From positions 1 to 27,286 of IMG/VR virus record IMGVR_UViG_3300040751_003522: a stretch of 27,286 bases of DNA; one strand, 5' to 3'. Position 1 is the stretch's first letter; each line of letters opens with the position of its first letter. This document shows positions 3,046-25,164 of the stretch, one piece after another. The stretch comes from a virus. The translations under genes and the position numbers were made by a program. The notes under the pieces are model-generated. The model was not told the origin of the DNA and searched no databases. It saw nothing but the letters and a program-made list of their open reading frames with translations.

Positions 3046-3048
3046 ATA
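3041..3048 (+). promoter_or_regulatory. T4-like late promoter box
   Basis: GATAAATA, one base from the T4 late consensus TATAAATA, lies six bases before the ATG at 3055 and contains the TAA stop of the upstream gene. With T4 spacing the transcript would start at about 3054, leaving essentially no leader. Confidence 0.7.
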
Positions 3049-4238: not shown

Positions 4239-4838
4239 ATGCTAGTAATTGGAAACGGTGAAAGTCGTAAAGATGTCGATATCGATGTTTTGCAAACAAT
4301 TAAAGTTGGATGCAACGCAATAATAAGAGATTATCATGTGCATCATTTAATTTGCTGTGACAAAAAGATGGTGAGTGAAGCAATAACCAACAACAGAATA
4401 TCCAATAAAAATATTTACACTAGATCAGATTGGCAAAATCTTTTTCCTGGTGTCAGCATGGTTCCTGAACTGTGGTATAAATCAGAAGAAAGAATTGATC
4501 AGCCGTGGCATTGGGGCAGTGGTGATTATGCAGTGCTTTTAGCAAGTGAGTTGGCAAAAGGACAAACAATACACTTGATAGGATTTGATCTTTACAGCAC
4601 CGACAGTAACGTAAACAATATCTACAAAGACACTCAAAATTACAACAAGTCTGACAGCAGATCAGTAGATCCTTCATACTGGATATATCACTTGGCTAAA
4701 ATATTTGACCATTACAGTCAAAATCAATACATAATATACCCTAACTTTAAAAACTTACCAAAATCTTGGCAAAACTTTGGCAATGTTTCCACTCAATCTT
4801 TGGATCATTTGGAATCAAACATTAACAATAAGAGTTGA
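4239..4838 (+). CDS. Rossmann-like / putative glycosyltransferase-type protein
   Basis: The N-terminus, a hydrophobic strand followed by GNGESR (residues 2-10), then VGCNAI and HHLICCDKKM, has the layout of the DUF115/sialyltransferase-like nucleotide-sugar binding proteins found in phages and bacteria. A later WHWGSGDYAVLLAS helix and IHLIGFDLY strand (about residues 88-125) fit the second half of such a fold, and an N-N-I-Y-K-D-T-Q-N-Y segment follows. There is no signal peptide. It starts six bases after the membrane protein gene. A role in transferring a sugar to phage DNA, virion or host surface is inference; the substrate is unknown. Confidence 0.6.
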   Translation: MLVIGNGESRKDVDIDVLQTIKVGCNAIIRDYHVHHLICCDKKMVSEAITNNRISNKNIYTRSDWQNLFPGVSMVPELWYKSEERIDQPWHWGSGDYAVLLASELAKGQTIHLIGFDLYSTDSNVNNIYKDTQNYNKSDSRSVDPSYWIYHLAKIFDHYSQNQYIIYPNFKNLPKSWQNFGNVSTQSLDHLESNINNKS

Positions 4839-4863
4839 CATTGACCCTAAATAAGTTTAATAT
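4835..4863 (+). promoter_or_regulatory. sigma70-type promoter for the QueD-like gene
   Basis: A -35 TTGACA (4835-4840) and a -10 TAATAT (4858-4863) are separated by 17 bases. The -10 element ends six bases before the ATG at 4870, so transcription should begin at about the start codon. Confidence 0.75.
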
Positions 4864-4869
4864 AAAGCA

Positions 4870-5316
4870 ATGAAACATTATTCTACAAAAACTTATGGAA
4901 ATGATAGAGGCTTCAGTTGTGCATTCAGACAGCCCAAAGCCACTCACAGTCATTGTTCATTAATACATGGATACAGTTTAGGTTTTAAATTTGTATTCGA
5001 ATCTGCCACACTGGATGATAAAAACTGGGTTTACGACTTTGGAAACTGTAAATGGATTAAAAAATATCTAGAAGAAAAATTTGATCACACACTGGCAATT
5101 GACAAAGCAGATCCTAAATTCGATGATCTTTTTGAATTGAAAAATAAAGGATTAGCAGATGTTGTTGTAATGGACGGAGTAGGTTGTGAAAAATTTGCAG
5201 AACACGTTTACAATTATGTTGCTCCGGAAGTTGCAAAAGGCACAGACAACAGAGTAAAATTGACAAGTGTTGAAGTATTTGAACATGGAGCCAACAGTGC
5301 TATATACAGTGCATGA
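4870..5316 (+). CDS. queD: QueD-like 6-carboxy/6-pyruvoyl-tetrahydropterin synthase, divergent
   Basis: A member of the QueD/PTPS family, which converts dihydroneopterin triphosphate to 6-carboxytetrahydropterin (queuosine and 7-deazaguanine pathway) or to 6-pyruvoyltetrahydropterin. Seen here: the Cys-x3-His-Gly core (Cys29, His33), the Asp-His pair (72-73) and the C-terminal VEVFEHGANSAIY segment with a candidate Glu at 138. Compared with E. coli QueD two of the three zinc histidines are changed: the first aligns with Phe19 and the last with Tyr35. His26 and His28 just before Cys29 could compensate. Other phage and bacterial members share the FRQ...HGY pattern as I recall, so this is likely a subfamily rather than a dead copy. 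It has its own sigma70 promoter and overlaps the next gene by four bases (ATGA). No QueE, QueC or FolE partner is visible here. Confidence 0.85.
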   Translation: MKHYSTKTYGNDRGFSCAFRQPKATHSHCSLIHGYSLGFKFVFESATLDDKNWVYDFGNCKWIKKYLEEKFDHTLAIDKADPKFDDLFELKNKGLADVVVMDGVGCEKFAEHVYNYVAPEVAKGTDNRVKLTSVEVFEHGANSAIYSA

Positions 5317-6020
5317 AGCGATATGTTGTATGTTTAAAACACGGTAACAAATACGGCCCTGAATATGTCAATGTGCTCGCCAACATGGTGGAAAGAAATT
5401 GCACACTTGATTATGAATTTGTTTGTTACACAGAAAATCCACATGGAATAGACACATCTAAAGTAACCATTAGACCTTTGCCAACTGCCTACAGAATAGG
5501 AGGATGGTGGTTCAAGCCTTTGTTGTTCAATCCCGACTTGAATGAAAGAGGCACCATGTTGTACATAGATTTAGACGTGATTATATTCAGAAACATTGAC
5601 AATCTTTTTACTCATCATCAAGATCAATTTATGGTAATCAGAGATTTCAATAGATGGCATCAAAAAGGTTGGAAAAAAATGAATTCATCTGTGGTTAGAT
5701 GGAATGTGGGACAACATCCACAAATATACAAAGACTTTGTGGCAGATGCTCCACAAGTAGCAAGAAGATATCATGGAGATCAAGACTGGTTGTATGCCAA
5801 GGTTAAAAAAGATTATCAATTTTGGCCCGATGATTGGATACAAAGTTACAAGTGGGAGATGCGTGGAAAGCCTCCTTTGACAAGAGATGCTTCGGGATTT
5901 AGAAACTTTGTTTCACCAGGTGTGCCAAAGATTAAACAAGAAACTTCAATTGCTGTATTTCATGGAGATCCTAATCCTAAAATTTGTTGTGATCCTTGGT
6001 GCAAAGAGCACTGGAAATAA
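5313..6020 (+). CDS. GT-A fold glycosyltransferase (DxD motif)
   Basis: A 235-residue glycosyltransferase resembling family 8-like enzymes. The TMLYIDLDVIIF strand (about residues 81-92) carries the DxD metal/nucleotide-sugar motif (Asp86, Asp88). Upstream, GGWWFKP (63-69) matches the conserved helix before the DxD strand. Downstream, SSVVRWNVG, a GDQDWLY helix and a terminal HGDPNPK segment follow the usual order of acceptor and metal-binding elements, with the late His as probable third metal ligand. There is no membrane anchor or signal peptide, so it is probably cytoplasmic. It overlaps the QueD-like gene through ATGA and should share its early promoter. The target may be modified phage DNA, virion protein or host polysaccharide. 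Association with a pterin/deazaguanine enzyme makes base modification thinkable but unproven. Confidence 0.8.
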   Translation: MKRYVVCLKHGNKYGPEYVNVLANMVERNCTLDYEFVCYTENPHGIDTSKVTIRPLPTAYRIGGWWFKPLLFNPDLNERGTMLYIDLDVIIFRNIDNLFTHHQDQFMVIRDFNRWHQKGWKKMNSSVVRWNVGQHPQIYKDFVADAPQVARRYHGDQDWLYAKVKKDYQFWPDDWIQSYKWEMRGKPPLTRDASGFRNFVSPGVPKIKQETSIAVFHGDPNPKICCDPWCKEHWK

Positions 6021-6049
6021 TTGACAACTATCGGAATATATGCTATAAT
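6021..6049 (+). promoter_or_regulatory. consensus sigma70 promoter (extended -10) for uvdE
   Basis: TTGACA (6021-6026), a 17-base spacer ending in TGC, and TATAAT (6044-6049) form a perfect consensus promoter with an extended -10. The ATG at 6055 begins six bases after the -10, where transcription itself should start. Confidence 0.9.
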
Positions 6050-6054
6050 AAAGC

Positions 6055-7101
6055 ATGATTAAACGTATTGGTTTCTGCTGTCAATGGTTCCATCATGACA
6101 GAACTCTTAAAAAGAAACAGTTGGAAGAAATAGAACGTCCAATGAACACCAGAGCAACAACAGTGCGTTGGCTCAACGAACATAAATCAGAAGCAGAAGA
6201 CAAATTGGCGTTTGTGTTCAAACACAACATTGATGGTATCAAAAATTTAATCCTAAAAGTTTCCACACTGCCCAAGAGCAGAAGAATGTGTAGAATTTCG
6301 TCTCCCATATTACCTGTGGCAACACAGGCTGACTGGAGATACTATTGGGACAAACCAGATATTTTAAAATATTGTGAAAAACATTTTGCTGAAGCAGGAG
6401 AGTTGGCTAGAAAGCATGATGTAAAAATTTCATTTCATCCAGGACAATTCACTGTGTTGGCAAGTGAAACACCAGATGTTGTTGAAAGATCAATAGATGA
6501 ATTTGAATATCATGTCAACATGGCAAGATGGATGGGGTTCGGTAAATCATTTCAAGACGGCTGTAAAATTAATGTACACATTTCAGGCAGATTGGGACCG
6601 GATGGCATCAAAAAAGTATTACCTAGACTGTCGCCAGAAGCACGTAATCTTCTCACAATAGAAAATGATGAAATGGGTTGGGGACTGGAATCTTCATTGG
6701 AATTAGAAAAACACTGTGCGTTGGTATTAGACATACATCATCATTGGGTTAGAACAGGAGAATATCTACAAGCCACAGATGACAGAGTGAAAAGAGTTGT
6801 GGACTCATGGAGAGGCACAAGACCTACCATGCACTATTCTTATTCTAGAGATGAATGGTTAACACCTGCTTATTCAAACACAAATGATATGCACAATGAT
6901 TTTCATGATATGGAAACACTATTGAACAAAGGTTGTAAAAAACAAAAATTAAGAGCACACTCAGAACTGTTGCCTAACAAAAAGGTGAATGAATGGGCAC
7001 TTACATTTTTACCTGAATTGGACATACAAGTAGAGGCCAAAATGAAAAATCTTGCCGCAGAACAACTGCACAACCAGGCTGTTGAGTTAGGCATTGTGTA
7101 A
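6055..7101 (+). CDS. uvsE: UV damage endonuclease (UvdE/UvsE family)
   Basis: A TIM-barrel endonuclease that nicks DNA 5' of UV photoproducts and some abasic or oxidised lesions, starting excision repair without UvrABC. Family signatures are seen in order: RIGFCCQ at the N-terminus (4-10), RISSPILP (80-87), SFHPGQF (126-132), NVHISG (173-178), TIENDE (201-206), LDIHHHW (225-231), TMHYSYS (258-264) and RAHSELL near residue 318. The His/Asp/Glu residues in these blocks are the expected metal-site ligands. At 348 residues it is slightly longer than typical bacterial members and is intact. It has the strongest promoter in the window, so early expression is expected, which suits repair of incoming DNA in sunlit water. 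The start follows directly from the promoter geometry; there is no SD. Confidence 0.95.
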   Translation: MIKRIGFCCQWFHHDRTLKKKQLEEIERPMNTRATTVRWLNEHKSEAEDKLAFVFKHNIDGIKNLILKVSTLPKSRRMCRISSPILPVATQADWRYYWDKPDILKYCEKHFAEAGELARKHDVKISFHPGQFTVLASETPDVVERSIDEFEYHVNMARWMGFGKSFQDGCKINVHISGRLGPDGIKKVLPRLSPEARNLLTIENDEMGWGLESSLELEKHCALVLDIHHHWVRTGEYLQATDDRVKRVVDSWRGTRPTMHYSYSRDEWLTPAYSNTNDMHNDFHDMETLLNKGCKKQKLRAHSELLPNKKVNEWALTFLPELDIQVEAKMKNLAAEQLHNQAVELGIV

Positions 7102-7115
7102 CGATAAATATCGTT
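7100..7115 (+). repeat. perfect 7-bp inverted repeat around the SOD late box
   Basis: AACGATA and TATCGTT are exact reverse complements separated by two bases. Together they run from the stop codon of uvsE to the base before the SOD start. The repeat may be an operator for a dimeric regulator or chance symmetry extending the late box. Confidence 0.5.
7103..7110 (+). promoter_or_regulatory. T4-like late promoter box for the SOD gene
   Basis: GATAAATA ends five bases before the ATG at 7116. With T4 late spacing the transcript would start exactly on the ATG. The box sits inside a perfect inverted repeat (7100-7115). Confidence 0.7.
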
Positions 7116-7667
7116 ATGAAATTACAGCACATAACAGAATCTAAAAATAGAGAAAAACAACTGGAAGTGGCAAAGTTGCCATACAAAATGACGGACCTTT
7201 CACCGGTACTGTCAGAAGAAAATATTGATTATCATTACAATGTACTCACTAAAGGTTACGTGAGAAGATACAACGAAGGCGAAGGTGATCCAGATTTTAA
7301 TTATGGAGGAGCAACACTTCACAATATGTTCTGGCTTCAACTCCAAGCACCCAAACCGGGCAACAAACCCACAGGTGCTATCAAAAATTTAATTGAAGAC
7401 GCACACAAATCTTTTGATGCTTTCAAAAAAGAATTAATTCGTACTGCCATGACCATTCAAGGTTCTGGTTGGGTATACATTGCCAAAAACGGATCAATTA
7501 AAACCACACCAAATCAATCATACAAATCAGACATACTAATGCCAATTGACATGTGGGAACATTCATTTTCGGATTATGTTCCTGCCAAGGATGCCAAAAA
7601 GAAATACTTAGAAGGCATCATGAGAATAATTAATTGGGAGTCAATCAATTTAAGATTACAATCTTAA
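7116..7667 (+). CDS. sod: Fe/Mn-family superoxide dismutase
   Basis: An iron/manganese superoxide dismutase, converting superoxide to oxygen and hydrogen peroxide. After a short phage-type leader (residues 1-19) the protein follows the family from end to end: LPYKMTDLSP (21-30), IDYHYN with ligand His40, the gateway Tyr48, GGATLHNMFW with ligand His69, a helical middle (KSFDAFKKEL), QGSGWVYIA (115-123) and IDMWEH with ligands Asp145 and His149, ending KYLEGIMRIINWESIN. All four metal ligands are present. The second-shell His-His seen in E. coli SodB (KHH) is Leu-Thr here, and a Gln (115) precedes GSGW, so the choice of Fe or Mn cannot be called. It has a late promoter box rather than an early one, suggesting production during virion assembly. 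No export signal is seen. Confidence 0.9.
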   Translation: MKLQHITESKNREKQLEVAKLPYKMTDLSPVLSEENIDYHYNVLTKGYVRRYNEGEGDPDFNYGGATLHNMFWLQLQAPKPGNKPTGAIKNLIEDAHKSFDAFKKELIRTAMTIQGSGWVYIAKNGSIKTTPNQSYKSDILMPIDMWEHSFSDYVPAKDAKKKYLEGIMRIINWESINLRLQS

Positions 7668-7670
7668 AAA

Positions 7671-7675
7671 AGGAG
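7671..7675 (+). promoter_or_regulatory. Shine-Dalgarno for the small gene at 7681
   Basis: AGGAG lies five bases before the ATG at 7681, in the 13-base gap after the SOD gene. It supports translation of this short gene. Confidence 0.75.
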
Positions 7676-7680
7676 ACAAT

Positions 7681-7854
7681 ATGATTAATCAAGTACAAAA
7701 ATGGGTTAATGCCAGAATCAAAGAAAGAACAACACTAGATGGTGCTCTTCTTGTAGTGGCAGGAATCTCATTCCTAATTTTCAAACCAATCGCTTCAATT
7801 GTGGCTTATGCGGCAATTGTGTATGGTGCTTGGACCATTTGGAAATCTGAATAA
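7681..7854 (+). CDS. Small membrane protein (57 aa)
   Basis: This short frame (MINQVQKWVN... to ...WTIWKSE) has a charged amphipathic N-terminus (residues 1-20, ARIKERTTLD) and a long hydrophobic stretch from about 21 to 53, enough for one long or two short membrane passes split by Lys-Pro at 35-36. It has a textbook SD and follows the SOD gene by 13 bases, so the two are probably co-transcribed from the late box. It resembles short hypothetical membrane proteins of marine T4-like phages; the function is unknown. It ends two bases before the convergent minus-strand gene. Confidence 0.8.
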   Translation: MINQVQKWVNARIKERTTLDGALLVVAGISFLIFKPIASIVAYAAIVYGAWTIWKSE

Positions 7855-7855
7855 T

Positions 7856-8143
7856 TTACAATTCGTTAATTTTTTTCAAACTAGAGGCGTCCATTTTAAA
7901 GATTTTTCTTTGGTGGGCGCCTTGTTTTTGAGCAAATCTTTTAGGATCACAGTTGTTGCACACATGCTTGTAATAATTACTGACCCTTTTGACTTGAATT
8001 TGACCTTTTGATCTTGTGAATTGATTGTCACACTGATCACACTTGAACAGATACAGTGTTTTAACTCTTTTACAAACATGTTTTTTGCCCAATTTACTAG
8101 TGCGTTCTGTGTGGGAAGTTTCTTTTAATTCTTTAATAAACAT
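7856..8143 (-). CDS. Zinc-ribbon-like small protein (minus strand)
   Basis: This is the only convincing gene on the minus strand. From the ATG at 8143 it encodes 95 residues; a TTG at 8170 would add nine. Two Cys pairs, CDQC (in LFKCDQCDNQF) and CNNC (in KHVCNNCDP), about 25 residues apart, form a likely four-Cys zinc site. Basic residues surround them (KKHVCKRVK, RSKGQIQVKR, and a basic C-terminus). The layout suggests a small DNA- or RNA-binding protein; some phage HNH nucleases carry similar ribbons, but no HNH catalytic motif is visible. The region upstream on its strand contains TGTAAATA (8156-8149), a weak late-box relative five bases before the ATG. It converges on the 57-aa gene with one base between the stops. 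Confidence 0.7.
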   Translation of the reverse strand: MFIKELKETSHTERTSKLGKKHVCKRVKTLYLFKCDQCDNQFTRSKGQIQVKRVSNYYKHVCNNCDPKRFAQKQGAHQRKIFKMDASSLKKINEL

Positions 8144-8176
8144 ACAATTATTTACATTAGGATTTATCAATTAATC

Positions 8177-8184
8177 AATAAATA
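8177..8184 (+). promoter_or_regulatory. possible late promoter box for the IscA-like gene and the giant fibre
   Basis: AATAAATA differs from the GATAAATA boxes by its first base and lies 12 bases before the ATG at 8197. It is the only late-box candidate upstream of the 2215-aa fibre gene, which overlaps the IscA-like gene. Confidence 0.45.
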
Positions 8185-8196
8185 ATTGTTGAAAAG

Positions 8197-15190
<6,994 letters not shown>

Positions 15191-15191
<1 letters not shown>

Positions 15192-15661
15192 TGGCACAAC
15201 AAAATATAAACATTGGATCAAGTGCAAACAAGGGCGATGGTGATCCGTTAAGAACGGCTTTTACAAAAATTAATTCTAACTTTACTGAACTATATGGTAA
15301 AGTTACTATACTTGAAGGTGGTGGCGTTGCAATACAACGTGATACACAAGGAAGTATATTTGGCGATGATTCAACTTTACTTGTGGATGCTGTAAACAGT
15401 TTAATACCAAGTTCAGTATTGTCAGGTGCTCTGCCGGCACTGGACGGTTCAGCACTTACAGGTGTTATAACAACAGAAACAGATCCAGTAGTAGGAGCAA
15501 TCACAGGAATAGTAAAAGCAGATGGGGCCGGCAATATTTCGGCGGCAGTGGCAGGAACAGATTACTTGGTAACAGAAACAATTGATTTAGCAACATTGCA
15601 AGGTGAAGTAGCGGCAAGTGTTGACTTTGCAGATTTTAAAACAAGGATAGCGGCATTATAA
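15191..15661 (+). CDS. Short fibre-like protein with shared N-terminal module
   Basis: A 156-residue structural protein starting with the shared module (NINIGSSANKGDGDPLRTAF, then KINSNFTELYG, residues 5-36). This is followed by a short coiled-coil-like stretch (KVTILEGGG) and a Ser/Ala/Gly-rich body with ALPALDGSALTG and ADGAGNISAAVAGTDYL motifs characteristic of phage fibre shafts. Its ATG overlaps the stop of the giant fibre gene (TAATG). The small size suggests an adaptor or fibre-tip accessory, perhaps assembling with the neighbouring large fibres. The structural role is inferred from the module and context. Confidence 0.75.
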
Positions 15662-15664
15662 GGA
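15660..15664 (+). promoter_or_regulatory. Shine-Dalgarno for the gene at 15672
   Basis: AAGGA overlaps the end of the previous gene and lies seven bases before the ATG at 15672. GATAAAAA (15663-15670), one base from the late box, overlaps it, but it abuts the ATG too closely for a promoter and is probably chance. Confidence 0.5.
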
Positions 15665-15671
15665 TAAAAAT

Positions 15672-17351
15672 ATGGCAAATAGAATACCACTTATTGTAGA
15701 TCAAAACGATGGCAACAAGATAAAAGAATTACCAGCAGGTGATAATCTTGATTTAACTAATTCGGGCATTGTTAATGCCAGCAGTATCGAAACAGGCACA
15801 ATTTCGATAAGCGGTGTAAATTTTTCAGGATCATACAACGATCTTACAGGCAAGCCAACCATTCCAACAGATGTTGCCAGTCTAACAGATGTCACCAATA
15901 GAATTCCAACACAACTGACACAGTTGAACATTTCAGATGGAAACGTGGGACAGTTTTTACAAACAGATGGAGCAGGCAATTTTTCATTTGCCACAATCAC
16001 ACAGTCAGGTGGAGACACCATAGTTGTACAAGGTGGAGACATAACTGGCATTCAGGTAACAGGTGATGATTCCGTACCAATCACAGTGGCAGGAAACAAC
16101 ACCGTAAAATTTGAAGGTGCTGGCACAATTACCACATCAGCCGCAGATGTTGACGGAACAACAGTGTTGACCATAACAGGTGTGGACAGCAACACCACAT
16201 ACACAGTGAACTTGGAAGAAGGTTTAACTGCGGACACAAAACTTTTACAATTAGTTTCAAATGCGGCTGTAACAGATTCAGTGGTATTCAAAGAAGGAAA
16301 CAATGTTACATTAGGAAGAGATGGAGACACACTCACTATCAATGCCACAAACACAGTTAATTCTTACACCATATCAGCAGAAGAAAATATTTCAGAACAA
16401 ACCACATTGAGATTAAGTGAGGCAGGTGGTGCTATTGATGAAGTTGTATTTGCAAGTGGCACAGACATCAACGTTGTGAGAACAGATGCAGGCACAATCA
16501 CAATCAACAGCACATTCACAGAAACAGATCAAAATTTAATTCAAACAGTCACAGCAGACACAGGCAGTTTCACAGCAACCACAGCCACAGATTCAATCAC
16601 ATTGGAAGGTGGTGCAGGTATTACCACATCAATTTCAAGTGATGTTGTGAGTATTGCATTTGATGGCAGTAACATTAACTCTTTACAATTTGCACAAGGT
16701 GTTGCAATTAATGAATTCAGTTCAGATGCAACATTGTCTGGAAATTCTACTTCTGCTGTGCCAACAGAACAAGCAGTGAAAACTTATGTGGACACCGAAA
16801 TCGCAGGAATCGAATTAGGAGGTGGTGGAGGAAATGCATTTGGAAACATTGTGGTGGACGGACAATCCACTGTGGGTGCTGACCAAGCCACAGACAATTT
16901 GACTTTCGTTGCAACCAATAACATTGAAATAACCACAGATGCAACTGGCGACAGTGTGACGTTTGCTGTAGATCCTGCAGGAGCCAACACTCAACTACAA
17001 TGGAACAACAACGGTGTGTTAGGAGCCAGTTCTGCAATGTCGTGGAATAACAACAACAACACATTGTCGGTTGAAAATATAGTAGCAACCTCTATTGAAA
17101 CAAACACACTTCAAGCACCATCCAGTTTAGTAGGCACTTACACAATTTCATCACCAACCACAATAACACTTGATCCTGTTTCAGAAGTGCAATTAGATGC
17201 ACCTATGAAATTGCAAAATAAAACTTCAGCACAATTGGCAAGTTTCGTTGCGAGTGCAGGTTCAATAGTTGCTGTGAGTGATAACAGTTACAAACCTGCT
17301 TACTACAATGGCAGTGTTTGGAAGTATGTGGTTGATGATACCAACGTGTAG
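15672..17351 (+). CDS. Tail-fibre-like structural protein (559 aa)
   Basis: A fibre protein built of low-complexity beta repeats rich in Thr, Asn, Ser, Val and Gly. The N-terminus (residues 1-60) carries RIPLIVDQNDGNKIKELPAGD and a YNDLTGKPTIPT element, a common linker in phage fibres. The middle contains several near-repeats of the pattern S-Y-T/I-x-x-E-x-L-x-x-x-x-x-L-x-L (about 175-260). Near 340-375 an INEFSSDATL..PTEQAVKTYVD module matches one in the giant fibre, followed by a GGGGG hinge (about 382). The C-terminus ends with AYYNGSVWKYV, a fold often ending phage fibres. No enzymatic motif, signal or membrane segment is present. An SD at 15660 supports the start. Confidence 0.8.
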   Translation: MANRIPLIVDQNDGNKIKELPAGDNLDLTNSGIVNASSIETGTISISGVNFSGSYNDLTGKPTIPTDVASLTDVTNRIPTQLTQLNISDGNVGQFLQTDGAGNFSFATITQSGGDTIVVQGGDITGIQVTGDDSVPITVAGNNTVKFEGAGTITTSAADVDGTTVLTITGVDSNTTYTVNLEEGLTADTKLLQLVSNAAVTDSVVFKEGNNVTLGRDGDTLTINATNTVNSYTISAEENISEQTTLRLSEAGGAIDEVVFASGTDINVVRTDAGTITINSTFTETDQNLIQTVTADTGSFTATTATDSITLEGGAGITTSISSDVVSIAFDGSNINSLQFAQGVAINEFSSDATLSGNSTSAVPTEQAVKTYVDTEIAGIELGGGGGNAFGNIVVDGQSTVGADQATDNLTFVATNNIEITTDATGDSVTFAVDPAGANTQLQWNNNGVLGASSAMSWNNNNNTLSVENIVATSIETNTLQAPSSLVGTYTISSPTTITLDPVSEVQLDAPMKLQNKTSAQLASFVASAGSIVAVSDNSYKPAYYNGSVWKYVVDDTNV

Positions 17352-17355
17352 GAGA
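17350..17355 (+). promoter_or_regulatory. Shine-Dalgarno for the subtilase gene
   Basis: AGGAGA overlaps the TAG stop of the fibre gene and lies five bases before the ATG at 17361, so the protease is translated from the structural operon. Confidence 0.75.
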
Positions 17356-17360
17356 CATTA

Positions 17361-19013
17361 ATGTCTGAAAAAGAATACATCGTCACAGTAAAAAAAGATA
17401 TCAATTGGCGTGATGTGCATAATGAAATTATCAACGACACCAGTGCCAATGGTGCTGTGGATTCAAACATTGTGCCAGACCGATCATGTGAATGTGTCAA
17501 GGAAAGAGCAAATAATCCAAGAAACACACACTACAATTTAACTGAAGACGAAGCAATGAAACTGGCCCTGGATCCAAGAATATTGGCTGTTCAAGCAGTT
17601 GATGACATTCCGGAACCTTTACCACGTGCATTTCAAGATGGAAATTTTAATAGAAGTTCAACTTCAACAGGCACTCAAGACAATTGGGGATTGTTAAGAC
17701 ACATTAATCAAACCAACATATTCAACAACAGCCTGTCAGATCCAGGTGGTACTTATGATTATGTGTTGGACGGCACTGGGGTTGATATGGTTATTGTTGA
17801 CACAGGAATTCAAGTAGGTCATCCAGAATGGGAAGATGCAGACGGTAACACAAGATTGCAACAGATTGATTGGTTCGCAGAGTCAGGTGTGTCTGGCACA
17901 CAGCCTGCTAACTTCTACACAGACACAAATGGTCATGGCACACACTGTATTGGAACCATGGCAGGTAAAACATTTGGATGGGCCAAGAATGCTAAAATCT
18001 ACAACATCACTCTATATGCTAATTCAGGAAATAATATCAGTTGGGACAACACGATTGATTGTCTCATAGGTTGGCACAACAACAAACCAATCGATCCTAA
18101 CACGGGTACAAAAAGACCCACAGTGGTCAACATGAGTTTTGGATATGTTTGGTATATCAGTGCTTCCACTCAGCCAAATCAAGTTAAATTTTCTAACCCT
18201 GGCACAGGTTATGACATCACAGGAGGACGTTACAGAGGCGTTGCACACAATGATAATTTCTTAAGCAATTTAGATGATAAAGGTTTACTAGGTGAATTTC
18301 AAGGGGGATCAACTTATGGTTATCCAAGAAAATATGCTTCCATAGACGCTGATGTTGAAGTGTTGATCAATAATGGTATCAATGTTTGTTGCGCCGCAGG
18401 AAATGATTCTATGAAAATAGATGTTCCGGGAGGAGTCGACTATGACAATTACATTTCAATTGATGCTGGTGGCAGTGCTTACTACATGTATTATCACCGA
18501 GGAGGTTCACCATCTGTGAATGAAGGTGGAAACACATTAAGTGGTCCTAATGTTACTGATGATAATCCTGTAGGAGATTTAAATGAAGGATTCATGGTGG
18601 GAGCATTGGAAAACAGTGATGTATTAGATGGCTCAACATATCTAGATAAGAAAACAACATTCAGTCAATCCGGACCAGCAGTAAACATTTATACAGCAGG
18701 TAGATACATCATCAGTGCCCAACCCAACAATCAAGGTTCTTCTTATTATTTAGATGCCAATTGGCGTCAGGCAAAATATTCAGGTACTTCCATGGCGGCT
18801 CCTCAAATGTGTGGAATGATAGGTTGTTTACTACAAGCACATCCTGATTGGACACCATCTCAAGTAAAAAAATTTTTCGAAACAAATGCAGTTGCAAACT
18901 TAAATGATACCGGCAACACTGATGATTACACCACAAACAGTACCATACACGGTGGGCCAAACAGAGTGGCTTATTTTCCTCTTAAAGGTCAGAGACCATT
19001 TAGCATAGGATAA
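17361..19013 (+). CDS. Subtilisin-like serine protease (peptidase S8)
   Basis: A complete subtilase. The catalytic triad is visible: Asp147 in VDMVIVDTGIQ, His192 in NGHGTHCIGTMAG and Ser477 in YSGTSMAAPQMCG. The oxyanion Asn348 lies in CAAGNDS. The N-terminal about 90 residues (YIVTVKKD..., then NLTEDEAMKLALDPRILAVQ) look like a propeptide of the inhibitor I9 type, which would be removed on maturation. An insertion of roughly 60 residues (about 270-330) and a Gly/Tyr-rich stretch (about 365-395) separate the core blocks. There is no Sec signal peptide, so the enzyme is either cytoplasmic or carried in the virion. It sits between fibre genes with its own SD, suggesting a virion-associated role: processing fibres, or digesting host surface protein. 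All catalytic residues are intact, so it should be active. Confidence 0.95.
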   Translation: MSEKEYIVTVKKDINWRDVHNEIINDTSANGAVDSNIVPDRSCECVKERANNPRNTHYNLTEDEAMKLALDPRILAVQAVDDIPEPLPRAFQDGNFNRSSTSTGTQDNWGLLRHINQTNIFNNSLSDPGGTYDYVLDGTGVDMVIVDTGIQVGHPEWEDADGNTRLQQIDWFAESGVSGTQPANFYTDTNGHGTHCIGTMAGKTFGWAKNAKIYNITLYANSGNNISWDNTIDCLIGWHNNKPIDPNTGTKRPTVVNMSFGYVWYISASTQPNQVKFSNPGTGYDITGGRYRGVAHNDNFLSNLDDKGLLGEFQGGSTYGYPRKYASIDADVEVLINNGINVCCAAGNDSMKIDVPGGVDYDNYISIDAGGSAYYMYYHRGGSPSVNEGGNTLSGPNVTDDNPVGDLNEGFMVGALENSDVLDGSTYLDKKTTFSQSGPAVNIYTAGRYIISAQPNNQGSSYYLDANWRQAKYSGTSMAAPQMCGMIGCLLQAHPDWTPSQVKKFFETNAVANLNDTGNTDDYTTNSTIHGGPNRVAYFPLKGQRPFSIG

Positions 19014-19016
19014 ATA
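19009..19016 (+). promoter_or_regulatory. T4-like late promoter box
   Basis: GATAAATA contains the TAA stop of the protease gene and ends five bases before the ATG at 19022. T4 spacing puts the transcript start on the ATG. Confidence 0.7.
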
Positions 19017-19021
19017 TTGAT

Positions 19022-19717
19022 ATGACAGTAAGCACAATCAACATTGGTAATATAGCAAACGACGGTACAGGTGATGATCTAAGAGAAGCGTTTATCAAAG
19101 TAAACAACAACTTCTTGGAATTGGATGCACGTAATCCTGAGCAAACCACAGCATCAAATCAGTTTGCTGATTCAGTTACAACTGCTGGCGTGTTTAAAGA
19201 AAAAGATGGTTTCAATTTAAAATTCAAAAACATCACAGCAGGTCAAAACATAACACTGGCTGTAGATGACAATCAAATCACAATCAATACAACAGGTATT
19301 GTGTCCCTTCAATACACAGCAGATGCAGGTGTAATAAATCCTATTGGAGCAACGGATCTTTTCAAATTTGCAGGAGCAGGTGGAACAACAACGACTCTTG
19401 GTGTAAATGGTAACAGCATCAAGCAACTCACAATAGACTCAAGACTAGCAAATGAATCTAATCCATCTTTGGGTGGCACATTGAATGCCAACAACAATCA
19501 AATAGTTGGAATAAGCACCTTACAAGTAGGTAATATTGATGCCTTAATAAAAGGACAAGATGTAACTGATCTAGATTCATTGATTGGTTTTAATTTTGGA
19601 ACCTTAACAGCAGGTATCACCAACTGGATAGAATATTTTGAATCTATACATCCAGTAAATCTTGGCACAATTGTAACGCCAGGCACTATTGATATTGATT
19701 TAGGCTCTATAGCCTAA
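19022..19717 (+). CDS. Fibre-like structural protein with shared N-terminal module
   Basis: A 231-residue protein whose N-terminus (STINIGNIANDGTGDDLREAF, then KVNNNFLELDA, residues 3-36) is a clear copy of the module in the genes at 8544 and 15191. The rest alternates short beta motifs (ITAGQNITLAVDDNQITI, NPSLGGTLNANNNQIVG), and NPSLGGTLNANN echoes [12 protein letters not shown] near residue 110 of the giant fibre. The C-terminus (NWIEYFESIHPVNLGTI, then PGTIDIDLGSIA) is compact. No membrane segment or enzyme motif is present. The late promoter box and position support a virion protein, perhaps a fibre adaptor or tip. Confidence 0.75.
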   Translation: MTVSTINIGNIANDGTGDDLREAFIKVNNNFLELDARNPEQTTASNQFADSVTTAGVFKEKDGFNLKFKNITAGQNITLAVDDNQITINTTGIVSLQYTADAGVINPIGATDLFKFAGAGGTTTTLGVNGNSIKQLTIDSRLANESNPSLGGTLNANNNQIVGISTLQVGNIDALIKGQDVTDLDSLIGFNFGTLTAGITNWIEYFESIHPVNLGTIVTPGTIDIDLGSIA

Positions 19718-19727
19718 TACGCTTCAC

Positions 19728-19735
19728 GATAAATA
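19728..19735 (+). promoter_or_regulatory. T4-like late promoter box
   Basis: GATAAATA lies eight bases before the ATG at 19744 in a 26-base intergenic gap. Its flanks (CAC before, TAGTT after) closely match those of the box before the SOD gene. Confidence 0.7.
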
Positions 19736-19743
19736 TAGTTACT

Positions 19744-22700
19744 ATGAGCAGTCTCTGGACAGTCACAACCGGATATAATTTGGGTACTTTTGAAGAAAAA
19801 AGTACACTGGACATTTCGTTGCCTGTGAATAGTGTGGATGAAATAAAATTAATAAGTGGAAATTTACCTTTAGGTGTGACCATATCGGACACAAATATTG
19901 TAGGAACACCTTTAGAAGTTGTGCGGAGCACTCAATTTAAATTTGTGTTGCGAGCAAATTTAAATGAATCCATTGAAGATCGAACATTTTTTTTAAATTT
20001 AGAAGGTCCTGACTCACCACTATGGGCAACTCCAAAAGGAAAATTACCAATAGGAGCAAACAATCAATTGTTTGTGTTGGACAGTGCTAGAGTTGAATAT
20101 CAATTAACAGCAACAGACATTGATGTATCAGCAGGAGACACACTGGAATATTACATTCCAGATGAAGTAGGTCAATTACCTCCAGGTTTAAGTTTGAGTA
20201 AAACAGGATTGATCACAGGTGTGATAGATCCAATATTGGCTTTGGACATTGAATCGAGAACAGGCACTTATGATTCAAATGATTATGACAGATTTCTATT
20301 TGATTTCGGTGATCAAGGTGTAAGAGCGGCAAGTAGTTTTTACTATGATTTGTCAATTAACGATACTTCAAGACAACCTAAAAAATTAAATCGTAATTAT
20401 CAATTTAGCGTTGCAGTCACTGATGGTATTAATACTGTAATACGTCCATTTGAAATATTTGTCATAGGTGAAGATTTTTTAAGAGCAGACAACACAATCA
20501 TGCAAGTAGGCACAGGAACATTTACTTCAGATGGTACATACTTGAGAAAACCTCAATGGTTAACACCAAGTGATCTTGGATATCGCAGAGCAAACAATTA
20601 TGTCACACTGTTTTTAGAAATATTTGATCCTAACGCCACCCAAGGTTTATTGAGATATGTATTAGAAAATCAAAATGATGATGGCACACAAACACAATTA
20701 CCACCAGGCACAGTGTTAGACACAATAACTGGAGAAGTGGCAGGAAGAATTCCATACCAACCAGCAGTTTCTAAAAATTATAAATTCACAGTAAGTGCAT
20801 TACGATATGGCAATGAGAATGAATTAGTTGGTGTTACAATTAATCCTTTTGAAGATCAAATACAAGGCTCAGATCAATTGAAAATTGCAAAACTGTCATT
20901 GGGATTGGAAGACGGTATAGATGATTTGAATTCTTTAATCAACCAATCAATTACAGTCAACAACAAAACTTATGTGGTGTTAGCAGTTGATGGTACCAAT
21001 GATTTCTATGATGTTTTAACATTGAGCAGAGCTCTTGAAGGAAATGACTTGTTAGCATACACAAATACTGTGTACAATCCGGACACCTACAGTAGTAATC
21101 CAACACCAATTGTCAGAGCCAACAATGAAATTTTTGTGTACAATAGAATAGACAAACAAAAATATGTTGGAAAAACTTTAATTTTTTCCAGCAGTGAACA
21201 ATATGTTATTCAAGACATACAAACTGTGTTAGATGAAGGTGAACCTGCACTACAAAACATTAACGCAACAGCAATTGACAAATTGATATTGAGTAAACCT
21301 TTAGAAAGAAATTTCACTAATCAACAAAATATTAGTATAGGTGCATTCCAAGGTGATACCTATTTCAAATTATTTTTAACAGGCAGTACAGACAAAGCAG
21401 TCGAAAGCACAAAAACTTTTTCAGTAAACATTTTAGGAGAAGTAGACAGCACAATTACTTGGCAATCTGATTCGTCTATAGGATCAATCACTCCAGATGA
21501 AGTTAGCAATTACAGTATTACTGCCAACAGTACAGTTACAGATGCAAATTTAAAATATGTCTTGATAGACGGTTCTTTACCACCAGGACTATCTTTGAGT
21601 ATAAATGGAGAAATCAATGGAGCATTGGATGGACAATCTGTAACTTTTATCGATGGTGGAGATTTTACATTAGATGCAGGCTCTACCAGCATTGATAGAA
21701 AATACGATTTCACAGTTACTTCCAGAGACAGATTTGGATTCACCAGTGAAAACAAACAATTCAACATCACTATAGATGTTTCTGATCCCAAGGAATATTC
21801 AGATTTATACGTCAAGCCATTTCTTGTACAGCATCAAAGAACACTGTTTAAAGATTTTATCAGTGATCCAGATATATTCAATCCGGAAAATATTTACAGA
21901 CCCAGCGATGCACAGTTTGGTATTCAAAAAGACTTACACATGTTGGTGTATGCAGGAATTGAAACACAGAATGTGGAAAAATATGTGAGTGCTGTGGCAG
22001 TTAATCACAAACGCAGAAGATTTAATTTTGGAGATATAAAAGTTGCTGAGGCAAAATTTGAAGGAACAACCGACACAATTTACGAAGTAATATATGCAGA
22101 AATAGTTGATCAACAAGATTCTACTAATGGGCAAGTTTCTAAATCATTCCAACCTAAAGACACAAAACGAATCACAATAGATCAAACAGACATCGAGGTC
22201 CTGGATGATACCACAAGGCTAAACATTGGTGGTGCTTTTTATCAATTGTTTAATCAAGCAGGCAATCAATTGATAACCCAAGCGATAGGTGATGACTTAC
22301 AGATTGTGGCTAGAAGCGGTAATCTTGTGTTCGACGCCGAAAACGGAGAATTAATTGTGGAGTTAAGAGGTGGACTACCTGTTGTGGTTGGTAAAGTACA
22401 AAACAATGCACCAACAGATCCTTATAGAAATAGACCAATTAATAATGTGATTAAAGTTGACAGTACATTTATTAAAACCAGTGCCAGCGAAGAAAACACA
22501 AAGTACATCAGCAATATCACAAATATGCGTGATCAAGTAAAAGCAACAGGAAATACAAAAGGATCAATGTTGCCATTATGGATGCGTACACCACAAGGAC
22601 AATCAGTCACACAATTAGGATATATCACAGCAGTGCCATTAGCATACTGTAAGCCAGGTACCAGTGCAACTGTGTTGAGTGCAATTCAAAATAATGATTT

Positions 22701-22809
22701 TGATATCAAAAACATAAACTTTGAAATTGATAGATACGTGGTTTCTAAATCTAATGAAAGATCAGATCAACAATATGTGCTGTTTCCAAATTATGAGTAC
22801 AATTTATAG
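19744..22809 (+). CDS. Large virion protein with He_PIG/Ig-like repeats (1021 aa)
   Basis: A large, probably elongated structural protein. Four copies of the He_PIG-type signature (L-P-x-G-[LTV], a hydrophobic strand, then a G/I-x-G turn) are visible near residues 41-56, 145-160, 318-335 and 610-630, each followed by an F-x-[FV]-x-[VL] beta strand typical of putative Ig-like domains. Residues about 680-1021 differ: they contain the segment beginning DLYVKPFLVQHQRTLFKDF and a Lys/Arg-rich part, and probably form a separate domain. There is no signal or membrane segment. Ig-like folds in phages mostly decorate fibres or capsids and bind carbohydrate. It has its own late promoter box and is followed by another late box, so it is a stand-alone late gene. 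Confidence 0.8.
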   Translation: MSSLWTVTTGYNLGTFEEKSTLDISLPVNSVDEIKLISGNLPLGVTISDTNIVGTPLEVVRSTQFKFVLRANLNESIEDRTFFLNLEGPDSPLWATPKGKLPIGANNQLFVLDSARVEYQLTATDIDVSAGDTLEYYIPDEVGQLPPGLSLSKTGLITGVIDPILALDIESRTGTYDSNDYDRFLFDFGDQGVRAASSFYYDLSINDTSRQPKKLNRNYQFSVAVTDGINTVIRPFEIFVIGEDFLRADNTIMQVGTGTFTSDGTYLRKPQWLTPSDLGYRRANNYVTLFLEIFDPNATQGLLRYVLENQNDDGTQTQLPPGTVLDTITGEVAGRIPYQPAVSKNYKFTVSALRYGNENELVGVTINPFEDQIQGSDQLKIAKLSLGLEDGIDDLNSLINQSITVNNKTYVVLAVDGTNDFYDVLTLSRALEGNDLLAYTNTVYNPDTYSSNPTPIVRANNEIFVYNRIDKQKYVGKTLIFSSSEQYVIQDIQTVLDEGEPALQNINATAIDKLILSKPLERNFTNQQNISIGAFQGDTYFKLFLTGSTDKAVESTKTFSVNILGEVDSTITWQSDSSIGSITPDEVSNYSITANSTVTDANLKYVLIDGSLPPGLSLSINGEINGALDGQSVTFIDGGDFTLDAGSTSIDRKYDFTVTSRDRFGFTSENKQFNITIDVSDPKEYSDLYVKPFLVQHQRTLFKDFISDPDIFNPENIYRPSDAQFGIQKDLHMLVYAGIETQNVEKYVSAVAVNHKRRRFNFGDIKVAEAKFEGTTDTIYEVIYAEIVDQQDSTNGQVSKSFQPKDTKRITIDQTDIEVLDDTTRLNIGGAFYQLFNQAGNQLITQAIGDDLQIVARSGNLVFDAENGELIVELRGGLPVVVGKVQNNAPTDPYRNRPINNVIKVDSTFIKTSASEENTKYISNITNMRDQVKATGNTKGSMLPLWMRTPQGQSVTQLGYITAVPLAYCKPGTSATVLSAIQNNDFDIKNINFEIDRYVVSKSNERSDQQYVLFPNYEYNL

Positions 22810-22816
22810 ATAAATA
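22809..22816 (+). promoter_or_regulatory. T4-like late promoter box
   Basis: GATAAATA begins at the last base of the TAG stop of the 1021-aa gene and ends 11 bases before the ATG at 22828. The predicted leader is about six bases. Confidence 0.65.
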
Positions 22817-22827
22817 TAAGTAATATT

Positions 22828-23391
22828 ATGACAAGCAATATAAACCCAAACGATATAGCAGAGCAATTTCCTGAAGCAGGCAGGGATAATCCTAGTCAAG
22901 GCTTTAGAGATAATTTTACCGCTATTCAAACTAATTTTTCAACAGCCCAATCAGAAATTACCAGTCTACAAAATAACACTGCAAAATTAAATGCAAACAA
23001 CAATTTTCAAAGCAATGAATTGAGTAATGCTTTGATGATCAACAATAAAATCAAAATTTTTGACGGTGGTGTAGTTTCTAGTTCACAAGATATCAATATC
23101 AGCAATGGACATTATCAAAAATTCACTTGTAGTGCATTAGTAACACTCAAATTTAGTGAATGGTCAAGTGTCAATGGACACATGGATGTTGTTTACATTG
23201 AATTAAAATCCAACAATGCTGATTCAAAAAATGTTACTTTTGACACAGTAGCAGGTGGAACAATCAAAGTTCAAACAGGTTACACAAATCCTGTTGCAGT
23301 TGACGATGCAAACAATCCTCTATTGTATAAATTTTGGAGTTATGACGGTGGGTTGACTGTGTTCATGCAGTTTGTTGGTAAATTTGAATAA
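22828..23391 (+). CDS. Fibre-like structural protein (187 aa)
   Basis: A structural protein with a divergent copy of the shared N-terminal module: GRDNPSQGFRDNFTAIQTNF (residues 18-37) keeps the Arg-x-x-Phe and Asn-Phe spacing. A short heptad-like helix follows (STAQSEITSLQNNTAKL). The C-terminal 100 residues are beta-rich and end LYKFWSYDGGLTVFMQFVG, a compact fold that could be a fibre tip. There is no enzymatic motif. Late promoter control fits a virion protein. The final A of its stop is the first base of the next gene's ATG (TAATG). Confidence 0.75.
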   Translation: MTSNINPNDIAEQFPEAGRDNPSQGFRDNFTAIQTNFSTAQSEITSLQNNTAKLNANNNFQSNELSNALMINNKIKIFDGGVVSSSQDINISNGHYQKFTCSALVTLKFSEWSSVNGHMDVVYIELKSNNADSKNVTFDTVAGGTIKVQTGYTNPVAVDDANNPLLYKFWSYDGGLTVFMQFVGKFE

Positions 23392-23636: not shown

Positions 23637-23649
23637 TATATTAATACTA
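23634..23649 (+). repeat. perfect inverted repeat abutting the -35 of the next promoter
   Basis: TAGTAT and ATACTA, exact reverse complements around a four-base loop, overlap the stop of the 81-aa gene and end at the base before TTGACT. The stem is AT-only, so it is a weak terminator at best; an operator for the early promoter is the other reading. Confidence 0.45.
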
Positions 23650-23678
23650 TTGACTTTTAATCACAAATAAGTTATAAT
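23650..23678 (+). promoter_or_regulatory. sigma70-type promoter for the DnaE-like gene
   Basis: TTGACT (23650-23655) and TATAAT (23673-23678) are 17 bases apart. The ATG at 23685 begins seven bases after the -10, so the transcript should start at about the ATG. Confidence 0.85.
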
Positions 23679-23684
23679 ACATTT

Positions 23685-24206
23685 ATGAAATTAGATCCTT
23701 TGGGTGTGCCCAGTTTTGGTGTAGATGATTTGGTAGAATTAATATATCAAGGCAATATTAAAAAGATAGATCAAGTGTTGTGTGAAAAAAATGCACACAC
23801 AGAAGAATTCAATCAAAGTGTAAAAGAAACAGAAATTGGCAACTTGCTGAAATACTATCAACACATAGATATTGATCAATCAGAATTTGATTCAGCATTA
23901 CAATCAGAATGGTTTATGCCAAACAGTTTCAAAAATTTTGATGTTGAAAAACACATAATGAATATATGTCCAGATACTGATGAAGCACACACAAGAGTAC
24001 AGGAAGAAATCACAGCATTGAAATCCAAAAATTTAATGCCTGTGCTGAAATTTATGCACTTTTTGGTATCATACATGAGAGAAAACAACATCGTGTGGGG
24101 CGTTGGCCGAGGCAGTTCTGTGGCAAGTTACGTTTTGTTCTTGTTGGGTGTACACAAAGTAGACTCGATTCAATATGAGCTGGACTGGCGAGAGTTCATT
24201 AGATAA
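23685..24206 (+). CDS. Truncated DnaE-like (C-family DNA polymerase) fragment protein
   Basis: The C-terminal 55 residues match the start of the palm region of bacterial DNA polymerase III alpha: a helix (LKFMHFLVSYMRENN, 121-135), WGVGRGSSVAS (138-148, compare the family pattern GxGRGSAAGS), YVLFLLGVHKVDSIQYEL (149-166) and WREFIR. In DnaE the FxRFLNP and catalytic PDxD residues come directly after this point; here the protein ends instead. The N-terminal 115 residues are helical and acidic and do not look like a PHP domain. It cannot be a polymerase by itself. It may use the GRGS loop to bind nucleotide or phosphate, or mimic a DnaE surface. A strong leaderless-type sigma70 promoter marks it as early. 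The stop is a clean TAA embedded in the next late box, not an obvious frameshift. Confidence 0.7.
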   Translation: MKLDPLGVPSFGVDDLVELIYQGNIKKIDQVLCEKNAHTEEFNQSVKETEIGNLLKYYQHIDIDQSEFDSALQSEWFMPNSFKNFDVEKHIMNICPDTDEAHTRVQEEITALKSKNLMPVLKFMHFLVSYMRENNIVWGVGRGSSVASYVLFLLGVHKVDSIQYELDWREFIR

Positions 24207-24209
24207 ATA
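24202..24209 (+). promoter_or_regulatory. T4-like late promoter box
   Basis: GATAAATA contains the TAA stop of the DnaE-like gene and lies 24 bases before the ATG at 24234. Unlike the other boxes, it leaves room for a leader with an SD (GGAG, 24221-24224). Confidence 0.65.
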
Positions 24210-24220
24210 CATACATAATA

Positions 24221-24224
24221 GGAG
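24221..24224 (+). promoter_or_regulatory. Shine-Dalgarno for the gene at 24234
   Basis: GGAG lies nine bases before the ATG at 24234, making this the one late-box gene with a conventional leader and ribosome binding site. Confidence 0.65.
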
Positions 24225-24233
24225 AAAAATATA

Positions 24234-24593
24234 ATGGCTATTAAACAAACAGGAAAAAAGACTTATAAAACAATGCAAGGCAAGCCTATTGACATGGACT
24301 TGTTGCGTAAAAGAAATGAGCTGACTCCAGCAGTTGGAAATGCAAAAGTGAATGCTCGTGGTGATGAGTTAGGACCTGGTGGCAAAATTATTAAGAAAAG
24401 AGAAGATGTTCTAGCAGATTACTACAGAGATAATCCTGCAAAAGTTCCTGAAAAACAACAGGTTGCTCAACCTAAGCAAGAAGCACCTAAACAAGAAACT
24501 GTTGAACAAGAAACACCTAAGCAAGAAGATGTACAATCTGATGCAGAATGGGTTGAAGATGCAGAAGGAAACTTTGTTAAAAAAGAACAATAA
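24234..24593 (+). CDS. Conserved-looking phage protein with KQE repeat (119 aa)
   Basis: The N-terminal 65 residues look like a conserved phage domain (YKTMQGKPIDMDLLRKRNELTPAVG, then NARGDELGPGGKI) that I associate with small virion or head-assembly proteins in marine T4-like phages, without certainty. Residues about 75-110 form a disordered Lys/Gln/Glu/Pro tail made of a 15-base tandem repeat, and the end is acidic (DAEWVEDAEGNF). It has no membrane segment. A late promoter box, a leader and an SD precede it. Its stop overlaps the start of the co-chaperonin gene (TAATG), so the two are translationally coupled and may be functionally linked in capsid assembly. Confidence 0.75.
   Translation: MAIKQTGKKTYKTMQGKPIDMDLLRKRNELTPAVGNAKVNARGDELGPGGKIIKKREDVLADYYRDNPAKVPEKQQVAQPKQEAPKQETVEQETPKQEDVQSDAEWVEDAEGNFVKKEQ
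24471..24530 (+). repeat. 15-bp tandem repeat, four copies, coding for PKQE units
   Basis: Units begin at 24471, 24486, 24501 and 24516 with consensus CCTAAGCAAGAA plus three variable bases. The first, second and fourth copies are nearly identical over 12 bases and the third begins GTTGAA. They are in frame and encode P-K-Q-E-x units. Copy number could change by slippage without breaking the frame. Confidence 0.8.
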
Positions 24594-24958
24594 TGGCGGC
24601 TGATTTTAGAATTTACGAAGGCAATCTTAAACCAATTAAAACCAGAGTACTTGTCACTGACATGAACTTTGAGGCTTATAAAACAAAGTCTGGTTTAATT
24701 ATTCCTGGCGATGACGGTGTTGTGCATGGAATAAAACCAAGATGGGCTAAAGTTTTAGCAGTGGGACCAAAAGCACCCAGTGATTTAAAAGAAGGCGACT
24801 GGATCTTAATTCAACATGGACGTTGGAGTAGAGGCATCAAAATGCAAGATCCGAAATCAAAAGAAACAAAAACAATTTGGATGGTTGAATCTGAATCAAT
24901 TTTGTTACGAGGTGATCATAAACCAGATGACTATTACTCTGCCAAAGTAATAAATTAA
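24593..24958 (+). CDS. GroES-like co-chaperonin (functional counterpart of T4 gp31)
   Basis: A phage co-chaperonin expected to cap the host GroEL and help fold the major capsid protein. The GroES fold is recognisable: LKPIKTRVLV (12-21), the mobile loop (about 25-42) with the GroEL-binding hydrophobic triplet in SGLIIPG, WAKVLAVGPKAP (51-62), LKEGDWILIQHG (65-76) and the closing strand ESESILLRG. The KPRWAKV segment is the counterpart of the T/S-x-G-x-V strand of GroES. At 121 residues it is longer than E. coli GroES and similar to gp31, with an extended C-terminus (DDYYSAKVIN). It overlaps the preceding gene by one base. It follows a late promoter, fitting capsid assembly. Sequence similarity is to GroES; equivalence to gp31 is inferred. 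Confidence 0.88.
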   Translation: MAADFRIYEGNLKPIKTRVLVTDMNFEAYKTKSGLIIPGDDGVVHGIKPRWAKVLAVGPKAPSDLKEGDWILIQHGRWSRGIKMQDPKSKETKTIWMVESESILLRGDHKPDDYYSAKVIN

Positions 24959-24961
24959 TTC

Positions 24962-24990
24962 TTGACTTCTAACACATAACCTAATATACT
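24962..24990 (+). promoter_or_regulatory. sigma70-type promoter for the small membrane protein / gp44 cluster
   Basis: TTGACT (24962-24967) and TATACT (24985-24990) are separated by 17 bases. The ATG at 24997 begins seven bases after the -10. It probably drives 24997 through at least the ferredoxin gene, since the genes are overlapping or nearly contiguous. Confidence 0.8.
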
Positions 24991-24996
24991 AACAGT

Positions 24997-25164
24997 ATGA
25001 AATTACCACATTCATACTCTGGAATTAATACCACCGGACTAACTGGAATTGTTTTAATGACCTTACATGTAACAGGGTTTTTAACAGGTGCATATTGGCC
25101 ACTGGCTTATGTGTTATTAATACTGTCAGGCATAGGGCAAGAATACAGGAAGTATTATGATTAA
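24997..25164 (+). CDS. Small membrane protein (55 aa)
   Basis: A short frame directly downstream of a sigma70 promoter, from MKLPHSYSGI to QEYRKYYD. Residues about 15-46 are hydrophobic (TGIVLMTLHVTGFLTGAYWPLAYVLLILSG) and could form one or two membrane passes; both ends are polar, and the C-terminus is charged and aromatic. There is no SD, and the predicted transcript begins at the ATG. It overlaps the following gene by eight bases. The family is unknown; as the first gene of an early operon it could be a host-membrane-directed factor, which is inference only. Confidence 0.75.
   Translation: MKLPHSYSGINTTGLTGIVLMTLHVTGFLTGAYWPLAYVLLILSGIGQEYRKYYD

Follow-up and report, generated by a model that had tools for sequence, protein, structure and literature searches.

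The viral contig IMGVR_UViG_3300040751_003522 from IMG/VR (27,286 bp, analysed over its full length and referred to below as the window), whose genes lie nearly all on the plus strand, raises the question of whether a T4-like phage can start its transcripts on the start codon itself and so translate genes from leaderless mRNAs without a Shine-Dalgarno (SD) sequence. A preliminary description of the window had placed four sigma70-type promoters with 17-bp spacers 5 to 6 nt before an ATG, and T4-like late boxes near positions 3041, 7103 and 19009 at the same distance, all of them in front of genes lacking an SD. The four sigma70 promoters were found as described (Table 1), and the three late boxes had gaps of 6, 5 and 5 nt, respectively, with predicted transcripts free of SDs. 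The explanation that we favor, with a probability of roughly 0.86, is that many promoter-proximal genes of this marine lineage of the T4 superfamily are made as leaderless mRNAs, the remaining units being SD-led or translationally coupled.

The spacing that such a start demands differs between the two promoter classes. The -10 hexamer of a sigma70 promoter spans positions -12 to -7, so that a transcript beginning with the A of the AUG requires a gap of 6 nt between hexamer and ATG. The 8-bp late box of the T4 type is numbered from -13 and thus ends at -6 (PMC2988020), so that a gap of 5 is required. Each class peaked at its own +1 gap, 6 for sigma70 and 5 for the late box. In the window, three sigma70 sites at gap 6 were found against 0.04 expected, and none of 100 shuffles reached three. 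The promoter of the QueD-like gene also stands at gap 6 in the related loci L082 and L083, and that of the UvdE-like gene at gap 5 in these two and in L084, L085 and L094. A weak fifth candidate, with TATACT at 2190-2195, 7 nt before the ATG at 2203, has a poor -35. A spacer motif, ATAAGT/C, was considered as a general element of the sigma70 sites and rejected, as it was present in only 12 of 74 sites and three families.

To place the window among its relatives, genes were called in 160 IMG/VR loci, eight large related contigs and eight reference phages (some of them partly), and the distinct IMG/VR genes numbered 3,260 and fell into 757 families. Related clamp loaders are encoded in at least 595 candidate IMG/VR stretches, the best 80 loci being 81 to 100% identical. 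In the clamp-loader set, the gap between the sigma70 -10 and the ATG was exactly 6 in 79 of the 140 promoter-bearing genes, with few at 9 to 19, while the late-box gap was bimodal (4 to 6 and 15 to 28, with a trough between). The box ATAAATA occurred at gap 5 in 16 families, compared with 0 to 3 families for each gap value from 9 to 13, and the variant ATAAGTA also peaked at gap 5 (22 genes of 6 families, none with an SD). The same offsets emerged from a test independent of gene calls: of 235 distinct sigma70 sites, 70 had an ATG at offset 6, and of 357 late boxes, 44 had one at offset 5; neither GTG nor TTG was in excess. This restriction to ATG recalls the leaderless starts of Sinorhizobium meliloti, which are AUG without exception (PMC3616915). 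Related contigs totalling 686 kb contained 21 matches to the full sigma70/gap-6/ATG pattern (∼30 per Mb), compared with 3 for the reversed control; in 299 Pseudomonadota genomes such sites numbered ∼0 to 3 per Mb, a figure uncorrected for base composition.

The nucleotides around the predicted start were in agreement with these spacings. A pyrimidine preceded the ATG in 98% of the late and 91% of the sigma70 sites (family-weighted), versus 46% for all genes, and leadered late promoters showed the same preference for T then A at positions 5 and 6 after the box. SDs followed the reciprocal pattern: of 111 leaderless-type sigma70 genes only 2 had one, compared with 218 of the 285 late genes that are leadered; the apparent SDs of late boxes at gap 5 share bases with the box and precede +1. 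The switch could be followed within single families. In that of the 55-aa gene at 24997, six relatives have gap 6 and no SD, as in the window, while 21 have a longer gap together with GGAG or AGGA, the start codon being identical. Since homologues with the promoter farther upstream carry SDs, a gene can apparently move between the two states. The family of the DNA polymerase III alpha-type (DnaE) fragment has a strict sigma70 promoter 4 to 8 nt from the ATG in 38 of 55 members, and it holds gap 6 under two different promoters, one inside the last codons of the upstream gene and one relocated, in the subgroup of the window. In the first arrangement (e.g., L012, L026 and L049), TTGACA lies in those last codons and the upstream stop TAA lies within the -10. 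A DnaJ-like family (q987; e.g., L034, L048 and L051) has either a sigma70 promoter at gap 5 to 6 or ATAAGTA at gap 5; here the type of promoter evidently changes while the leaderless spacing stays. Two exact gap peaks, starts confined to ATG, the pyrimidine before them, and SDs that are missing at these sites but regained where the promoter is distant together give good support to a predicted leaderless start.

The late boxes of the window, taken alone, exceed chance only modestly (two at gap 5 versus 0.25 expected; 3 of 100 shuffles also gave two), so that for late genes the claim depends on the relatives. The families of the genes behind these boxes vary in this respect: leaderless-type members make up 20 of 23 in that of gene 3055 and 5 of 9 in that of the superoxide dismutase gene, and leaderless-type and leadered members number 22 and 18, respectively, for gene 19022 and 12 and 21 for gene 19744. 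At 19010, the box shares bases with an AGGA, but this precedes the predicted +1, and the predicted transcript has no SD. On the minus strand, a conserved gene for a cysteine-rich protein of 95 aa has 23 homologues (37.9 to 100% identical) that retain a TAAATA box 4 to 5 nt (once 7) before the start. The preliminary description had listed neither this gene nor the late boxes at 8178, 19729 and 22810. Just 5' of this gene, at 8144-8190, lies an element like ATCCTAATGTAA, conserved in most homologues and possibly an operator.

Leadered late units are nevertheless frequent. About two thirds of the late boxes in the related contigs are leadered, mostly with SDs, and each large contig carries 4 to 6 leaderless-type beside 4 to 17 leadered late boxes, which indicates a mixed rather than a universal design. 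The preliminary description, which had called the leaderless arrangement systematic for the first genes of early and late units, thus overstated a pattern that does hold at many sites: gene 24234 of the window is SD-led, as are most of these leadered late units. Its view that two modes of initiation coexist was borne out. It had also assigned SDs to genes inside operons; this is so for those at 79, 7681, 15672 and 17361, while those at 8544, 15191, 23391 and 24593 lack one and overlap the stop codon of the preceding gene. A mixed strategy of leaderless and leadered units in this marine T4-superfamily lineage is our best reading of the sequences.

Table 1. Promoters, initiation signals and genes of the window (gap, nucleotides between the box or -10 hexamer and the ATG)
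Feature	Coordinates	Strand	Remarks
Sigma70 promoter TTGACA-17-TAATAT	4835..4863	+	gap 6 to ATG 4870 (QueD-like); no SD
QueD-like gene	4870-5316	+	
Sigma70 promoter TTGACA-17-TATAAT (12/12)	6021..6049	+	gap 5 to ATG 6055 (UvdE-like); no SD
UvdE-like gene	6055-7101	+	
Sigma70 promoter TTGACT-17-TATAAT	23650..23678	+	gap 6 to ATG 23685 (DnaE fragment); no SD
DNA polymerase III alpha-type fragment (DnaE fragment) gene	23685-24206	+	
Sigma70 promoter TTGACT-17-TATACT	24962..24990	+	gap 6 to ATG 24997 (55-aa gene); no SD
Conserved 55-aa gene	24997-25164	+	
Late box ATAAATA	3042-3048	+	gap 6 to ATG 3055; holds TAA stop of upstream gene (3045); no SD
Late box ATAAATA	7104-7110	+	gap 5 to ATG 7116 (superoxide dismutase); no SD
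Superoxide dismutase gene	7116-7667	+	
SD AAGGAG of internal gene 7681-7854	7672..7680	+	contrast case
Conserved 95-aa cysteine-rich protein gene	7856..8143	-	leaderless-type; box GTAAATA at gap 5
Variant late box GTAAATA	8149..8155	-	gap 5 to minus-strand ATG at 8143
Late box ATAAATA	8178-8184	+	gap 12 to ATG 8197 or 18 to ATG 8203 (IscA-like); no SD
IscA-like gene	from 8197 (alternative ATG 8203)	+	
Block of largely tail-fibre-like genes	8544-23391	+	
Late box ATAAATA	19010-19016	+	gap 5 to ATG 19022; holds TAA stop of upstream gene (19013)
Late box ATAAATA	19729-19735	+	gap 8 to ATG 19744; predicted leader ∼3 nt
Late box ATAAATA	22810-22816	+	gap 11 to ATG 22828; predicted leader ∼6 nt; no SD
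Leadered counterexample: late box ATAAATA (24203-24209), AGGAG (24220-24224), ATG 24234	24203..24233	+	gap 24
GroES-like protein gene	24593	+	
gp44-type clamp loader gene	25906	+	
Ferredoxin-like protein gene	26826	+	

Several observations weigh against a leaderless design. The starts are open reading frame calls from our own simple gene caller. The loci are related and partly overlapping, so that gene counts are not independent, and family counts are smaller. Late promoters in the relatives are mostly leadered (306 genes versus 128; 64 families versus 34), gene 24234 of the window has an SD leader and 26 of the 55 members of its family are leadered, and the two late gap-5 sites of the window are weak by themselves. 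A gp55-type sigma came to light in a single related contig, the largest, the others and the window being fragments.

The rival that survives best, although we consider it improbable, attributes the pattern to genome compaction only: promoters would be squeezed onto the starts, protein would come mostly from read-through polycistronic mRNA by termination-reinitiation, and leaderless mRNA would be a by-product. The intergenic gap of leaderless-type late genes is indeed shorter (median of 17 nt, versus 37), two late boxes of the window hold the stop codon of the upstream gene (3045 and 19013), and the DnaE-fragment family overlaps its promoter with the upstream codons and stop. However, in the 24997 family the intergenic regions with gap-6 sigma70 sites are 38 to 43 nt long, about the same as in several SD-leadered homologues and thus with space enough for a leader, and compaction predicts neither the pyrimidine at -1 nor gaps that exactly hit +1 for two promoter geometries. 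Compaction contributes but cannot account for the sigma70 sites where a leader would have fitted.

It is very unlikely that the boxes act in translation, as AU-rich enhancers bound by the ribosome or bS1, rather than as promoters. They do lie near the position of ribosome loading, in AT-rich genomes (37% GC), but the sigma70 sites have TTGACA at a 17-bp spacer, identical boxes 15 to 30 nt upstream coexist with a separate SD, and the gap differs by exactly one base between the promoter types. Equally slight is the chance that the sites are random matches in AT-rich DNA or the starts miscalled, with a true start and SD downstream: loose promoter look-alikes are no commoner than expected over the first 14 kb of the window (50 found, 49.9 expected) and its late gap-5 pair is weak, but the exact sigma70 arrangement, far above its expectation in shuffles, recurs in dozens of families and in the test free of gene calls, and in leadered homologues an SD precedes that very start codon, the GenBank starts of Pelagibacter phage HTVC008M also agreeing where checked.

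T4 is the textbook model of staged phage transcription, and its late genes are leadered and mostly SD-bearing. The late promoters of T4 and the cyanophages (TATAAATA / NATAAATA with gp55) have the same box as the window, and a gp55-type sigma is encoded in one relative of the window (G001, 156 kb; E value of 7.5e-78); none was found in seven partial related contigs, nor did the window genes that were compared with PHROGs include one. The difference lies in position, since 59 of the 60 boxes in T4, Syn9 and P-SSM2 stand at least 12 nt ahead of the ATG. Late boxes at a gap of 8 or less numbered 0 of 23 in T4, 0 of 12 in Syn9 and 1 of 25 in P-SSM2, compared with 12 of 16 in HTVC008M, which infects Pelagibacter (SAR11) (Fisher P = 7e-10 against the other three pooled). 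Thus the arrangement is unusual when set against T4, Syn9 and P-SSM2, as the preliminary description had it, but it is not unique, HTVC008M being the stronger case for late genes. Its late genes at gap 5 include those at record positions 18916 (minus strand) and 19456, 31132 and 49760 (plus strand). The one at 19456, annotated as baseplate tail tube cap, contrasts with gaps of 27 in P-SSM2 and 32 in Syn9, in a partial alignment. HTVC008M belongs to the Kyanoviridae, is only distantly related to the window lineage and has few leaderless-type sigma70 sites (2 genes).

By its clamp loader, the nearest cultured relatives of the window are Pseudomonas phage PA5oct and its kin (Arenbergviridae; 56% identity). 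PA5oct differs in being mostly leadered, with only 3 of 31 late boxes at a gap of 9 or less. The two share the gene order DnaE fragment, GroES-like, clamp loader, and their DnaE fragments are 44% identical. This fragment is a stand-alone protein of 173 aa (gp196 in PA5oct), conserved beside the GroES-like and clamp-loader genes. Elsewhere in the window, the superoxide dismutase has an N-terminal extension (MKLQHITESKN...) ahead of the Sod domain that recalls capsid-targeting peptides of the T4 type, and several further late leaderless-type genes open in a similar way. A subtilase (Peptidase_S8) gene at 17361-19013 sits amid the tail-fibre-like genes.

In the mechanism that we propose, RNA polymerase with a host-type sigma70 would take the A of the AUG as its first transcribed base, and in late genes, a gp55-type late sigma would direct the start to the same base. 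The resulting mRNA with a 5' AUG would be bound by 70S ribosomes, or with the help of IF2, without SD pairing; both routes of loading on a 5' AUG have been reviewed (PMC9031893). Other late units and many internal genes would keep their SDs or rely on translational coupling. The position of the promoter would set the mode, with no SD where it lies at the ATG and an SD where it lies ∼15 to 30 nt upstream. The 5' ends of the transcripts, the 70S/IF2 route and the early or late timing are the parts of this scheme that we infer.

Leaderless genes of comparable kinds are known, although the literature searched (open-licence only) contained no report of leaderless T4-like phages. Many mRNAs of Thermus phage phiYS40 are leaderless, in the middle and late classes, and the levels of host IF2 and IF3 were reported to change (PMC3594737). 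Like the window lineage, for which this is a prediction, phiYS40 is a phage with many leader-free mRNAs, but it is a different phage with a thermophilic host, and host-type sigma70 promoters are also involved here. In Deinococcus-Thermus, a "-10 region adjacent to ORF" has been tested experimentally as a leaderless -10 motif ∼6 to 7 bp before the open reading frame (PMC12340547). The -10 is similarly close here, with gaps of 5 to 6 in the window and a peak of 6 in the relatives; that system is bacterial and relies on TANNNT, whereas the window has full -35 and -10 elements 17 bp apart and, as a second class, a phage late box.

Among the 299 Pseudomonadota genomes there was no obvious donor clade for a leaderless style copied from the host, and SAR11 was not singled out. 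A phage-encoded bS21 (PF01165) is present in HTVC008M, PA5oct, Atu_ph07, SCTP-2 and three of the eight related contigs (G002, G004 and G006), and absent from T4, Syn9, P-SSM2, RaK2 and XacN1. As a cause of the leaderless style it was rejected for lack of clean tracking, XacN1 having some leaderless-type genes without it. One possibility, which we hold to be somewhat less likely than not, is that selection has favored leaderless initiation in marine phages of the T4 superfamily that infect streamlined bacteria such as SAR11, a host group linked to it here by one cultured phage. It would have separate origins in the marine lineage akin to PA5oct and in the family of HTVC008M, would extend to both sigma70 and gp55 promoters, and would provide a second channel of ribosome loading beside the SD-led genes, possibly tuned by bS21.

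What makes this lineage noteworthy is the predicted precision of its start sites, which would fall exactly on the A of the AUG with either type of promoter. Homologues that toggle between leaderless and SD-led forms would constitute a comparative set on when leaderless translation is favored. For marine phages that have not been cultured, in which gene callers based on SDs may miss starts, the spacings also offer a rule by which promoters and start codons can be called from sequence.

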